64,000 bases of DNA. It comes from Paenibacillus sp. FSL H3-0469. GTDB taxonomy: Bacteria; Bacillota; Bacilli; Paenibacillales; Paenibacillaceae. The position numbers were made by a program, and so were the translations under genes. Of the stretch, positions 27,421 to 33,603 are shown in pieces; position 1 is the stretch's first letter, and every line of letters starts with the position of its first letter. The notes under the pieces were generated by a model. It was not told where the DNA came from and searched no databases. It saw only the letters and a program-made list of their open reading frames with translations. Where the stretch lies: positions 7,068,001 to 7,132,000 of the forward strand of contig NZ_CP150302.1 in NCBI RefSeq assembly GCF_038051945.1, read 5' to 3'.

Positions 27421-29121
27421 CTACAGCGCCTTATCGTCTATGCTGTTCAGCCAGCCCTCAATCTCACCGATGACGGAGCCGATGCAGCCATCCTCGAACG
27501 GGGAGGTTAATCCGGCAAGCTTCACCAGCTCGGTGAAGGAGCGGCTGCCTCCGGCCTGGCAGAGCTTCAGATAATCCGGCCAGGCCGAGGTGAAGTCCTC
27601 GTTCGAGCGTTTCCAGAACTGGAAGGCGCAGAGCTGGGCCAGGGTATAGTCAATATAGTAGAACGGGGAGCGGAAAATATGGGCCTGCTTGTGCCAGAAG
27701 CCGCCTTGTTCCAGATAAGCATTACCGTCATAATCACGGTGCGGCAGATATTTCCGCTCAATGTCCCGCCAAGCCTGCTTGCGTTCCTGCGGCGTAGCTT
27801 CCGGATGCTCGTACACAAAATGCTGGAATTCATCGACAGATACGCCGTAAGGAATGAACTCCAGACTGTCAGCCAAGTGGTTGAAACGGTACTTGTCCGC
27901 CTCCTCCTTGAAGAACAGGTCCATCCATGGCCAGGCGAAGAACTCCATACTCATCGAATGAATCTCAGCGGCTTCGGAGGTTGGGAATGCATATTCAGGG
28001 ACCGCCATATTCCGGCTGGAATACACCTGGAACGCGTGCCCGACCTCATGGGTCAGCACATCGATATCCCCGGCGGTTCCATTGAAGTTGGAGAAAATAA
28101 ACGGAGCACGGTAGTCGCTGAAGAAGGTGCAGTAGCCGCCGAATTCCTTGCCTTTTTTGCTGACCAGATCCATCAGCCCGTTCTCCTGCATGAAGGTGAA
28201 GAATTCACCGGTCTGCGGGGACATCTCCTGGTACATCTTCGCACCATTCGCCACGATCCAGTCCGGGTCTCCCTTAGGGGTCGCGTTGCCGGAATTGAAC
28301 TTAATGCCCTCATCGTAAAATTTCAGTCCGTCCAGCTGAAGGCGTTCGCGCTGGCGCTGCTTCAGCTTCCCCGCAACCGGCACGATATGCTCATGCACCT
28401 GCTTGCGGAAGCCCGCCACCATCTCAGCATTGTAATCGGTACGTCCCATCCGGTCATACCCGAGCTCCACGAAGCTCTTGTACCCCAGCTTGGCAGCGAT
28501 TCCTGCCCGGACCTTCACCAGCTCGTCATAGATCCGGTCGAATTCGGGTTCATGCTCTGCCATGAAGGCATTGCGGGCCTCGAATACACCTTTACGAACT
28601 TCACGGTCCGTGGAAGAATCGAACGGAATCAGCTGTGCCAGCGTGCGTTCTTCGCCCTGGAACATGATTTTGGCGGACGCGATCAATTGGGAATATTCGG
28701 AGGACAGCTTATTCTCCAGCTGCAGATCTTCAATGACTTCAGGGCTGAAGGTGCGCAGTGAGATCTCGGCCAAGCTTAGGAGCTGTGTTCCCCATTCCTG
28801 CTCGAACTCGGCTCTATACTTGGAGTTGACGAGGGCTCTGTAATAATCCGTGATATACTCCTGGATCACCGGTCCGGTCTCGTCCATATAGTCCTGCTCT
28901 GCCTTGTAGAATGCATCCTCCGTATCGATGGAGTGGCGGACACTCACGAGGGTCTCCATCGTATCGAAGCGGCTGCGCAGCTTATTGATTGCTGTCACGG
29001 CAGCCTTTTGCTCCTCCAGATTGCCTGTCTCCAGGTCCTTCAGCAGAGTGGTGAACTCCTGCTTGAATTGAGCCACATCCGGTCGTTCGTATACATATTC
29101 TGAGAATTTCATTTGCTGCAT
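27421..29121 (-). CDS. M3-family oligoendopeptidase
   Basis: A 566-residue cytoplasmic zinc oligopeptidase. The catalytic HExxH is HEVGH (followed by AFQVYSSRN), with a downstream glutamate in SEAAEIHSMSMEFF. The typical substrate-side segments NFNGTAGDIDVLTHE and SPFYYIDYTLAQLCAFQFW are also present. Its length fits the M3 oligoendopeptidase F relatives of about 565 residues. The ATG at 29121 has AAAGGAT 5 bases upstream. It degrades short peptides and is monocistronic. Confidence 0.93.
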   Translation of the reverse strand: MQQMKFSEYVYERPDVAQFKQEFTTLLKDLETGNLEEQKAAVTAINKLRSRFDTMETLVSVRHSIDTEDAFYKAEQDYMDETGPVIQEYITDYYRALVNSKYRAEFEQEWGTQLLSLAEISLRTFSPEVIEDLQLENKLSSEYSQLIASAKIMFQGEERTLAQLIPFDSSTDREVRKGVFEARNAFMAEHEPEFDRIYDELVKVRAGIAAKLGYKSFVELGYDRMGRTDYNAEMVAGFRKQVHEHIVPVAGKLKQRQRERLQLDGLKFYDEGIKFNSGNATPKGDPDWIVANGAKMYQEMSPQTGEFFTFMQENGLMDLVSKKGKEFGGYCTFFSDYRAPFIFSNFNGTAGDIDVLTHEVGHAFQVYSSRNMAVPEYAFPTSEAAEIHSMSMEFFAWPWMDLFFKEEADKYRFNHLADSLEFIPYGVSVDEFQHFVYEHPEATPQERKQAWRDIERKYLPHRDYDGNAYLEQGGFWHKQAHIFRSPFYYIDYTLAQLCAFQFWKRSNEDFTSAWPDYLKLCQAGGSRSFTELVKLAGLTSPFEDGCIGSVIGEIEGWLNSIDDKAL

Positions 29122-29317
29122 CGCATCCTTTCTTTACCATATAGTTTCTATTATATAATCGGTGCGCGCAAAAAACTAATGTTCTTCCGGTAATATTTGA
29201 TTATAGCTAAACGCTATACTCCTGGTACCGCACACATCCGTTGTTGAACCGATATGGAAATTATTTTAGAATAGAGTTAATCTGCACCAATTATTGAATC
29301 CCGGGAGGTGATGACCC

Positions 29318-29374
29318 ATGTTTCGGATGAGTCAGTATGTGAACGGCACGCTCCATGCAAAGCCTGTGGAATAA
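29318..29374 (+). CDS. Possible 18-residue leader peptide ORF
   Basis: ATG with a near-perfect GGGAGGTGATGACCC ribosome site. It encodes MFRMSQYVNGTLHAKPVE and then TAA. The 3' half of the ORF lies inside two mutually exclusive RNA stems (see the next entry), the geometry expected for a regulatory leader peptide. There is no homology evidence. Confidence 0.4.
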   Translation: MFRMSQYVNGTLHAKPVE

Positions 29375-29483
29375 CTAAGGCGAAAGCTTGGCATGGAGCG
29401 GATTTATTCGCCTGAAGTATGTTTTATGTAATACAGTTATTTACACAGGCTTTGCCCTTAAAAGATTAATATATTTTAAGGAG
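29349..29483 (+). promoter_or_regulatory. Structured leader with competing stems upstream of the CD3324-like gene
   Basis: Stem A: CGCTCCATGC (29349-29358) pairs with GCATGGAGCG (29391-29400) and extends after one mismatch. Stem B: GCAAAGCCTGTG (29357-29368) pairs perfectly over 12 bp with CACAGGCTTTGC (29444-29455). A and B share bases 29357-29363, so they exclude each other. A third stem, CCTTAAAA/TTTTAAGG (29456-29463 with 29474-29481), covers part of the AAGGAG ribosome site of the next gene. This resembles an attenuator or translational switch. Confidence 0.5.
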
Positions 29484-29493
29484 CGAGCCAGAT

Positions 29494-29769
29494 ATGCAAT
29501 GTGTAAATGCAGCAAAGCTGTTGCCAGACCACCTGCTGAAGGAGATTCAGCAATATATTCAAGGGGAAGCCCTGTATATCCCGACCTGCAAGAGCAAACG
29601 CAAAAAATGGGGCGAAAGCTCAGGGGCAGCCGATTACTATAAAGTCCGCAATGCTGAGATCCGTAGCCGCTTCCAAGAAGGTGCAGAGTTGGACCAATTG
29701 TGTGAGCAATACGGGTTATCGATAGATAGCATCCGCAAAATCGTATATTCCAGGAACCCGCAGAGCTGA
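29494..29769 (+). CDS. CD3324-family small HTH protein
   Basis: A 91-residue protein. Its N-terminal half (NAAKLLPDHLLKEIQQYIQGEALYIP) is the typical CD3324-family opening. A basic linker (KSKRKKWGE) follows, then a helix-turn-helix-like C-terminal half (RNAEIRSRFQEGAELDQLCEQYGLSIDSIRKIVYS), reminiscent of Mor-type regulators. AAGGAG lies 10 bases before the ATG. It is probably a DNA-binding regulator of unknown targets. Its own mRNA leader is unusually structured, and a clean terminator follows. Confidence 0.8.
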   Translation: MQCVNAAKLLPDHLLKEIQQYIQGEALYIPTCKSKRKKWGESSGAADYYKVRNAEIRSRFQEGAELDQLCEQYGLSIDSIRKIVYSRNPQS

Positions 29770-29783
29770 TCTGCGGGTTTTTC
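29755..29783 (+). terminator. Terminator of the CD3324-like gene
   Basis: A perfect 10-bp stem AACCCGCAGA/TCTGCGGGTT with a 5-base loop, then TTTT. It overlaps the last codons of the gene. Confidence 0.9.
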
Positions 29784-29914
29784 AGGCTTGGGGAGGCGGG
29801 GCTGACTTGACCGGGAAAAGGGCCGAGCGAAGGCTGCGGATGGTCAAGTGTGCATGGGTAATAGAAAGCGTGTGATCAAGGGCATCCGCTAAACTGCTAT
29901 GGCCAAGTGTTCTA

Positions 29915-32178: not shown

Positions 32179-32295
32179 GAGCATGAGTATGAGCATGAGT
32201 ATGAGTATGAGAAAACCTAGGAATTTCTGTTACCTTTTGCTGAGTGAACCGTAATAAGCCAAATGCTATACATAATCTTCCATGGAGATGATCTT

Positions 32296-33603
32296 ATGCT
32301 GCTTCACAAGGTATCCCTGACAGAAATGATGAGCCGGATTCAAGAGCCCGGATATTCACCTGAAACTGTGCTTGACCCGTACTTGGAGCGTTACAGACAG
32401 CTTGAGCCGCATATCCATGCGTTTGTCCCTGAGGATGGGATTGAAGGGCGTCTGGATTCGGAAAAAGCTTTGCTGCAAAGGATTTACAGCGCAGATGAAC
32501 GAAAACCGGCCCTATTCGGCATTCCTGTAGCCATTAAGGACCTGCTCCACGTGGACGGCTTGCCGACCCGGGCGGGATCGCAGCTATCCGCTGAGCGGTT
32601 AACCGGCGCCCAGGGGTCTCTGGTTACCAAGCTGCGTGCCCTCGGGGCCGTGATTGCAGGCAAGACGGTGACCGAGGAATTTGCTTACAACGGACCGATT
32701 GCAACGCGTAACCCGCATAACACCGCACATACTCCCGGCGGGTCCAGTGCAGGCTCCGCCGCAGCGGTGGCTGCAGGGCTCTGTCCGCTGGCTGTGGGCA
32801 CACAGACGCTGCGTTCGGTGATCGCTCCGGCGTCCTTTTGCGGGGTGGTCGGGTTCAAGCCCAGCTATGACCGGGTTCCGCTGGATGGGGTGCTGCTGTT
32901 CTCGCCGTCTTTTGACACGGTAGGGTTCTTCACGCAGAATTTGCCTGATATGGAGGCAGCGGCGGCCTTGCTTGTCCCAAGTTGGCAGAACCGCTCTGCC
33001 GAAGTCTCCCGCAAGCCGGTTCTGGGTATCCCTAAGGGAGTCTATATGGAGCTGATGAGCGCAGAAGTCAAAGGGGTGTTCCAGGCTCAGATCTCAGGGC
33101 TTGAACAGCTTGGATATGAAGTCCGTTACGTCCAAATGCCGTGGGAGGATGAACTCATCTACGGAAATGCCATGCTGCGTTTCATTGAGGGGGAGCTGGC
33201 ACGGGAGCATGAAGATAGATTCGCGGAACATAGAGTAGAATACGGCGTTCCCGTGCAGGAAGCGATCCTTAGAGGACAGCAGATTCCGGAGGAGGAGCTG
33301 GAGCAGTACCGCACCCGGCAACGGGAGCTGCGGCGTGATCTGATGGAGCTTATGGAGCAGGAGGGGATCGACCTGTGGGTCTCTCCGGCCCAAGGGGGGA
33401 CTGCGCCGAAGATCGAGGAGCGGAATACGGGCTGGGCTGGGATGCCTGCGGTCTGGGGGTTCGCGGGAGTGCCTACGGTCAGTCTGCCTGCGGCAACGCT
33501 TGAAGGCCTGCCGCTCGGCTTCCAGTGCATAGGAAGATATGGAGAAGACGAGCTGCTGTTAGCCTGGGCGCGCCAGCTATGGCCGCAGCTGGCTGAGGAG
33601 TAA
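32296..33603 (+). CDS. Amidase-signature-family hydrolase
   Basis: A 435-residue amidase. The catalytic Lys is in GIPVAIKDLLHVDG, and the cis-Ser is in TPGGSSAGSAAAVAAG. The expected nucleophile Ser lies in GTQTLRSVIAPASFCGVVGFKP. In almost all members the latter reads T-G-G-S or T-A-G-S, the glycines shaping the oxyanion hole. Here it is T-L-R-S, so activity or specificity may be altered. ATG 32296 follows GGAGATGATCTT. It is monocistronic, and the substrate is unknown. A GatA subunit is unlikely because gatB and gatC are absent nearby. Confidence 0.87.
   Translation: MLLHKVSLTEMMSRIQEPGYSPETVLDPYLERYRQLEPHIHAFVPEDGIEGRLDSEKALLQRIYSADERKPALFGIPVAIKDLLHVDGLPTRAGSQLSAERLTGAQGSLVTKLRALGAVIAGKTVTEEFAYNGPIATRNPHNTAHTPGGSSAGSAAAVAAGLCPLAVGTQTLRSVIAPASFCGVVGFKPSYDRVPLDGVLLFSPSFDTVGFFTQNLPDMEAAAALLVPSWQNRSAEVSRKPVLGIPKGVYMELMSAEVKGVFQAQISGLEQLGYEVRYVQMPWEDELIYGNAMLRFIEGELAREHEDRFAEHRVEYGVPVQEAILRGQQIPEEELEQYRTRQRELRRDLMELMEQEGIDLWVSPAQGGTAPKIEERNTGWAGMPAVWGFAGVPTVSLPAATLEGLPLGFQCIGRYGEDELLLAWARQLWPQLAEE

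Follow-up and report, generated by a model that had tools for sequence, protein, structure and literature searches.

Attenuators have usually been described gene by gene. In those of the ermC type, helices 1:2 and 3:4 alternate with an anti-sequestering helix, the choice being set by the stalled ribosome, and the leader described below is alike in this alternating-helix logic. The whiB7/wblC regulator of Actinobacteria belongs to a family and a phylum unrelated to those of the CD3324 regulators considered here. The likeness lies in the control: a uORF ahead of the regulator senses ribosome-targeting drugs of several classes (PMC12121999). The same source describes the toiL-topAI leader of E. 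coli, in which the sequence of a leader ORF is paired with the RBS that follows it, a ribosome stalled on the ORF uncovers that RBS and several drug classes are proposed to be sensed; unlike the present case, it is a single proteobacterial locus, Rho-linked and placed before a toxin-antitoxin gene, and the comparison is one of logic (PMC12121999). In Clostridioides difficile, cplR combines uORF-controlled SD sequestration with a ribosome-protection gene downstream, but its uORF is very short (MRI) and its leader holds an intrinsic terminator, according to the account in PMC10201436. Of the known systems, toiL, cplR and whiB7 come nearest in logic.

A FusB-type EF-G-binding gene behind a leader is also known from pUB101. 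PMC12493156, PMC12008383 and PMC3352095 state that fusB is governed by translational attenuation, with fusidic acid stalling ribosomes on the leader and alternative mRNA structures exposing the SD, and one of the three calls the regulation of FusB homologues unknown. The leader family reported here likewise precedes FusB-type genes, whereas the pUB101 leader ORF is a different one by eye; the staphylococcal pUB101 fusB leader gave no covariance-model match at E up to 5, nor was there a match at the FusB-type genes of Priestia, Enterococcus and Listeria.

The window, a stretch of 64,000 nt from Paenibacillus sp. FSL H3-0469, contains a leader of this family ahead of a small CD3324-family regulator gene. 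With a probability of roughly 0.8, I take this leader to be a translational attenuator that opens the SD of the regulator when a ribosome stalls early on the leader ORF, probably in connection with antibiotics, and the regulator and FusB-type genes to mount a resistance response.

Leader and regulator in the window

The arrangement set out in the original prediction was recovered from the sequence: a leader ORF with its own SD overlaps the stems, stem A of 10 bp and stem B of 12 bp are both present, and a third stem (hairpin D) hides part of the regulator's SD (Table 1). Seven bases had been said to be shared by stems A and B; this is true of an extended stem A, which lengthens past one mismatch to 29363/29386 and overlaps stem B at 29357-29363, while the strict 10-bp and 12-bp stems have 2 nt in common.

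Table 1. Coordinates of leader, regulator and associated signals within the window.
Feature	Position	Strand	Basis or remark
Promoter-like TTGAAC-17-TAGAAT	29244..29272	+	pattern scan: 1 found, 1.4 expected by chance
SD of leader ORF, GGGAGGUGAU / GGGAGGTGAT	29303..29312	+	sequence
Leader ORF, MFRMSQYVNGTLHAKPVE, 18 codons + stop	29318..29374	+	ATG 29318, UAA 29372-29374
Stem A 5' arm CGCUCCAUGC	29349..29358	+	10 bp with 29391-29400
H1 5' arm CGCUCC, first part of stem A 5' arm	29349..29354	+	pairs with regulator SD
Stem B 5' arm	29357..29368	+	12 bp with 29444-29455
Stem C 5' arm AGGCGAA	29378..29384	+	pairs with 29407-29413
Stem A 3' arm GCAUGGAGCG	29391..29400	+	holds GGAGCG, which repeats the core of the regulator SD
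Stem C 3' arm UUCGCCU	29407..29413	+	pairs with 29378-29384
Stem B 3' arm	29444..29455	+	29448-29455 also outer 5' part of sequestering hairpin D'
Hairpin D (third stem) 5' arm CCUUAAAA	29456..29463	+	pairs with UUUUAAGG 29474-29481, which overlaps the regulator SD
Hairpin D/D' 3' arm	29474..29489	+	includes SD AAGGAG 29478-29483 and H1 3' arm GGAGCG 29480-29485
CD3324-family small regulator, 91 aa, Mor-like helix-turn-helix	29494..29769	+	NF040785, PF08765
Apparent intrinsic terminator over regulator stop codon	29757..29782	+	hairpin 29757-29777 + U tract; missed by pattern scan

The leader folds far more stably than expected by chance, with an MFE of -72.6 against -49.5 +/- 3.9 for shuffled sequences (z -5.98; none of 200 shuffles as low). 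In the predicted MFE fold, leader strand CGCUCC pairs with GGAGCG of the regulator SD; this helix, H1, encloses stems B and C, and the remaining half of the SD is taken up by hairpin D. H1, stem C and the extended sequestering hairpin D' are predicted features that go beyond what had been described for the locus. The promoter-like sequence has counterparts that look alike by eye in several close orthologues. The pattern scan returned no terminator-like site in 29100-29850, though it overlooked the apparent one at 29757 as well; on inspection by eye, none of stems A, B, C and D is followed by a U tract, and between the leader ORF and the regulator no hairpin runs directly into one, unlike in cplR.

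The regulator belongs to the CD3324 family, scoring 106.4 bits with NF040785 against a cutoff of 65. It also passes the gathering score of PF08765 (Mor; 29.2 against 24.9), below which one homologue, L079, falls at 20.8. Its structure was predicted with moderate confidence (mean pLDDT 79.1, pTM 0.49), and a Foldseek search with the model returned nothing under E 0.001, the Mu Mor and Mu C complex entries standing at ranks 5 and 6 (E 0.35 and 0.71). A profile search of solved structures yielded no useful match: a 'CAP REPEAT' entry reached 1.2e-14, with no stretch passing alone. The nearest named relatives of the protein are found in P. silagei (96% identity) and P. tritici (86%).

Conservation and distribution of the leader RNA

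When orthologous leaders were aligned, the predicted stems proved to be conserved and covarying. Alignment A1 comprised 24 of 29 orthologous leaders, five near-duplicates being omitted, and yielded the covariance model R1. In A1, 97.4% of the cells were paired and 34 cells carried two-sided changes, compared with 11.7 after shuffling, a count reached in none of 500 shuffles. Neither the number of pairs with two-sided change (7 vs 5.9) nor that of further pair types (21 vs 20.7) exceeded the shuffles; within A1, two-sided changes were lacking from helices H1 and D, and stem A had one-sided changes only.

Alignment A3, built from 96 R1 matches at E <= 1e-6 with the second copy of the window's own genome (L081, 29.2 bits) omitted, gave the model R2. 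Here, 94.1% of the cells were paired, and two-sided changes were found at 21 of 29 pairs and in 324 cells as opposed to 107.8 after shuffling, figures that lean upward since the rows are fitted to the model and related, so that the shuffle counts overstate independence. Sliding the partner strand by 1-3 columns lowered pairing to 38-48%. Two-sided changes occurred in all four helices of A3, the leader:SD helix included, where the strands vary in concert and one pair is UA in 69 leaders and CG in 23. Stem A was followed across 75 clusters: each of its 7 pairs is standard in 73-75 of them, with two-sided changes at five. Because both the leader:SD helix and stem A show such changes, the leader strand appears to covary with two partners, namely the SD and an SD look-alike in the 3' arm of stem A.

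In hairpin D', the 3' arm of stem B (CUUUGC) pairs with the spacer that follows the SD. D' forms in 73 of 74 clusters, with a mean of -15.9 kcal/mol as against -13.0 kcal/mol for shuffled spacers, and is stabler than the shuffled mean in 67 of the 74; RNAalifold found no consensus structure in the segment from the stem B 3' arm to the start codon when this was folded alone. The primary sequence is highly conserved at CUCYAUGCAA and CCUUAAAA. A further candidate for an anti-sequestering helix, helix E (stem C 5' arm with the B 3'/D 5' strands), is perfect in one locus (L017) by eye and was rejected in favour of stem B, as by eye it fails in the L020 and L021 clades.

The regulator has a match in 96 of 100 genomes of the same genus. 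The same RNA segments stand ahead of it in 29 of the best 30 regulator matches, the exception being L010, and R1 matched every one of 98 loci apart from L010, besides some weak spurious matches. L010 (also L195) is from P. phytohabitans: by eye, the leader is replaced there by the 3' end of an apparent TnpB-type insertion-sequence ORF that leaves the last bases of the SD region alone in place, and the regulator frame is open with 81% identity. At E <= 0.01, R1 found the element in 80 of the 100 genomes of the genus. R2 extended this range to the family, with matches in 241 of 295 sampled genomes and 15 of 19 genera (E <= 0.001), to the class, with 96 of 398 sampled genomes and 27 of 145 genera, and, at E <= 0.01, to 12 of 299 genomes of the phylum; of these 12 matches, four are weak and one, L176, is strong (93.7 bits) and comes from a different class.

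The window's own genome holds three clear copies: that of the window, one at 2058790 before a FusB-type gene, and one at 7214831 ahead of a second CD3324 gene, behind which lies an APH-family gene. A fourth match in this genome was weak (E 0.037), and L134 (E 0.037) was dropped as a weak covariance-model match. Elsewhere, two copies lie 765 nt apart in one genome (L271, G561:C4 174768 and 175533), which suggests a tandem duplication of the leader-regulator unit.

Rfam 15 recognised no family at its gathering score, other than a tRNA in the window. The best match on the leader was sR10, with 10.9 bits against a gathering score of 45, and none was found in 8 loci. Judged by this comparison of sequences, the leader is a member of a widespread structured RNA family that is absent from Rfam 15. 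Among the matches listed, the open-licence literature held no account of this leader or of CD3324 regulators. An RNA-seq study of P. riograndensis compared its 5' UTRs with Rfam (PMC5670726) and therefore could not have named this leader family.

An ORF runs into the element in all 134 distinct elements. A leader SD match of at least 5 nt precedes it in 87 of them, compared with a mean of 19.7 (maximum 24) over 20 rounds of shuffling the upstream bases. The RNA core is read in three frames depending on the clade (LHAKP in 34, SMQSL in 24 and SCKA/PCK in 14 of 72 clusters; three elements lack a clear core), and thus it is apparently the RNA rather than the peptide that is conserved where the core frames differ between clades. 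Given this use of three frames, the idea that the main signal is a conserved peptide encoded by the core was rejected. The peptide ahead of the core does show in-frame constraint: in the window clade (11 loci, 8 distinct), pN/pS was 0.36 in frame and 2.73 and 2.02 in the other two frames, and in the IDFVL clade 0.51 as against 0.97 and 1.38. For the GVGFL clade (0.37 in frame, 0.45 at +1 and 1.48), the true frame and +1 were not separated. Within the clade-based sets, the start of one leader (L016) is mis-set.

Genes downstream of the element

Among 97 element matches within the genus, a hand-chosen and non-random set of which 27 entered via the regulator, the downstream gene was of the CD3324 family in 65 cases by similarity and in two more by a CD3324 match (L027) or by eye in a broken frame (L095). 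The rest comprised 24 FusB-type genes, two APH, three beta-lactamase/esterase-like and one SpoU methylase gene, the assignments outside CD3324 and FusB coming from Pfam for L112, L114, L115 and L117 and from likeness for the other two. With 65 of 97 matches before CD3324 genes, such an arrangement is not unusual for this regulator family, contrary to what had been claimed; nor is it universal, as ten of 44 named CD3324 relatives carry the element. The other 34 lack it at E <= 0.05, one of them being the insertion-disrupted P. phytohabitans leader, and the regulator family is therefore wider than the leader.

In 44 further loci, five of which repeat elements of the first set, 38 CD3324 genes (some with shortened frames), five FusB-type genes and one weak match with neither were found, and in 39 additional loci 28 CD3324 genes, nine FusB-type genes, one SpoU-like gene whose start resembles that of L115 and one gene read as CD3324 in another frame. 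In L095, L161, L165 and L237, the CD3324 frame behind the element is truncated or shifted, with regulator decay or sequencing error as possible causes. The four weak matches in more distant genomes scored 28-31 bits: one precedes an Lsa-family ABC-F gene (833 bits, cutoff 750), one a Mef-like MFS gene (132.7, cutoff 675) and one a weakly GrdA-like gene (29, cutoff 170), while L183 was taken as a chance match since it lies, by eye, inside an apparent other coding sequence.

Three FusB-type downstream proteins scored 70.4-74.7 with PF07299 (gathering score 27.1), and FusB-type proteins fell short of the NCBIfam FusB/C/D/F cutoffs (86-105 vs 375-450); the FusB-type gene of the own genome (L132) was assigned by eye from its sequence and by similarity. 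A CD3324 gene stands directly before a FusB-type gene in nine loci from four families of the class. On a plasmid of Pseudalkalibacillus hwajinpoensis (L189 94-1130), an annotated CD3324 gene lies immediately 5' of a FusB/FusC-family gene, and on a Priestia megaterium plasmid (L188 1-1133) an EF-G-binding gene comes right after a macrolide-family glycosyltransferase gene.

The gene behind the regulator was surveyed in a deduplicated set with a first gene of 80-120 aa, in which 86 of 95 loci had a same-strand ORF of at least 100 aa starting within 450 nt. Pfam (E <= 1e-5) assigned these 86 genes most often to APH (15), GNAT (Acetyltransf_1; 13), amidase (11), EF-G-binding (9), alpha/beta hydrolase (Abhydrolase_3; 8) and nucleotidyltransferase (5) families. 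As a control, the longest ORF on the upstream side was scored at 49 of the 51 of these loci for which upstream sequence was taken: GNAT occurred three times, and APH, amidase and EF-G-binding were absent from the 25 of 65 families listed, among the remainder of which single matches could be hidden. As the loci are related, no probability is attached to these counts; Fisher tests on the neighbouring genes were set aside, since they depend on upper counts assumed for the control families as well as on related loci. Membership of the APH, GNAT, amidase or beta-lactamase-fold families does not by itself make a protein a resistance factor. An Amidase gene (PF01425) is found in the window at 32263-33603; such a gene is close behind CD3324 in the relatives L008 and L011, and in the window other genes intervene. 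Taken as a whole, the gene company of the element probably points to sensing of ribosome-targeting antibiotics.

A proposed stall-responsive switch and its alternatives

Without a stalled ribosome, the SD of the CD3324 gene would be hidden in either of two ways. In one, leader strand CGCUCC pairs with the SD as H1, over stems B and C; in the other, stem A would form locally and the freed 3' arm of stem B would extend the SD hairpin to D'. If a ribosome halts so that its leading edge rests on CGCUCC, with the P-site near codons 7-9 of 18, it should block both H1 and stem A while leaving the 5' arm of stem B free. Stem B could then draw its 3' arm away from D', leaving the SD under a weak A/U-rich hairpin alone, and the regulator would be made. 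The switch would most likely be set off by ribosomes that a ribosome-targeting antibiotic slows or stalls soon after they have begun translating, and the output is likely a small Mor-like DNA-binding regulator that contributes, with FusB-type genes under the same leader, to a resistance response.

This scheme was modelled at equilibrium by masking the ribosome footprint codon by codon and computing how much energy it takes to open the SD. For the window leader, the modelled cost of 12.4 kcal/mol dropped to 6.9 when the ribosome sat at codons 7-8 and went back to about 11 once the ribosome covered the stem B 5' arm. The first dip arises in the model because covering strand S1 removes H1 and stem A, and stem B blocks D': in the modelled structures, stem B then holds its 3' arm from D' and hairpin D is left alone, and D' can form when the B 5' arm is covered. 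Over 60 clusters, the mean change was -1.1 and -1.4 kcal/mol with the leading edge at S1 nt 0-2 and 3-5; it turned positive at nt 9-41 (+1.2 to +2.3) and slightly negative once more at nt 51-74 (-0.2 to -0.7). The cost dropped by at least 3 kcal/mol in 51 of 134 elements, and the change was below -1 in 45% of the 60 clusters at the best position. The modelled effect is thus modest, uneven and not universal, and a switch that works kinetically is beyond what an equilibrium calculation can decide.

The window leader also shows a second modelled dip at codon 16 (7.6 kcal/mol), which the proposed mechanism does not explain and which would suit a simpler scheme: a stall anywhere in the leader might free the SD in the style of toiL-topAI, with leader translation competing against leader:SD pairing. 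That the leader pairs directly with the SD in a covarying helix fits such competition, and the toiL model presented in PMC12121999 is the same. I nevertheless regard a stall at any position as a rather doubtful trigger, since at equilibrium the modelled cost of SD opening is on average higher with the ribosome at later positions, through D' in the structures inspected, and stem A and D' are conserved yet needless for simple competition.

A second question is what slows the ribosome. Shortage of amino acids or tRNAs, or a general slow-down of translation, could be sensed instead of antibiotics: by eye, the leaders have no codon run common to all, so any slow ribosome could act, and whiB7 is reported in PMC12121999 to be inducible by amino-acid starvation too. 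The genes downstream, however, are largely of ribosome-protection and drug-modification families and not of biosynthesis, which makes starvation an unlikely signal. It is less probable still that the leader is a small-molecule riboswitch or is bound by a protein, for instance in autoregulation by CD3324, with an incidental ORF. The high primary conservation noted above could be read in this way, but most of the conserved bases are engaged in alternative pairing, the leader ORF has a good SD far above the control and is constrained in frame, and Rfam offers no match. That the stems are chance pairings in an ordinary untranslated sequence draws on the general ease of finding stems and nothing more, and can practically be dismissed given a z of -6.0, covariation in four helices and stem A, and presence across the class.

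Translation-responsive attenuation, the core of the original prediction, is well supported by comparison: alternative helices that covary, sequestration of the SD, in-frame constraint on the leader ORF and shared use of the element before ribosome-protection genes all speak for it. The leader family offers a directly testable answer on how FusB-type genes are regulated in Paenibacillus and its relatives, and ties these genes to the CD3324 regulator. If one homologous sensor is indeed common to regulator, ribosome-protection and drug-modification families, it would open a systematic route to finding the inducible, intrinsic resistance of Bacilli; the leader family can now be searched for with a covariance model.

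More tentatively, and at somewhat less than even odds, the element may be a portable stall-sensor RNA, found across Bacilli and at least one other class, that reads the position of the stalled ribosome by RNA geometry and stands before several unrelated resistance-type genes and before a small regulator acting as a Firmicutes counterpart of WhiB7. Lineages would therefore be free to shift the frame of the core and to tune the stall motif upstream of it. The residues at the predicted P-site window are alike within clades, namely FVL, YVN, RFK/RLK, GFL and RLP, the first of which presumably stands in the register of the ErmCL stall motif.
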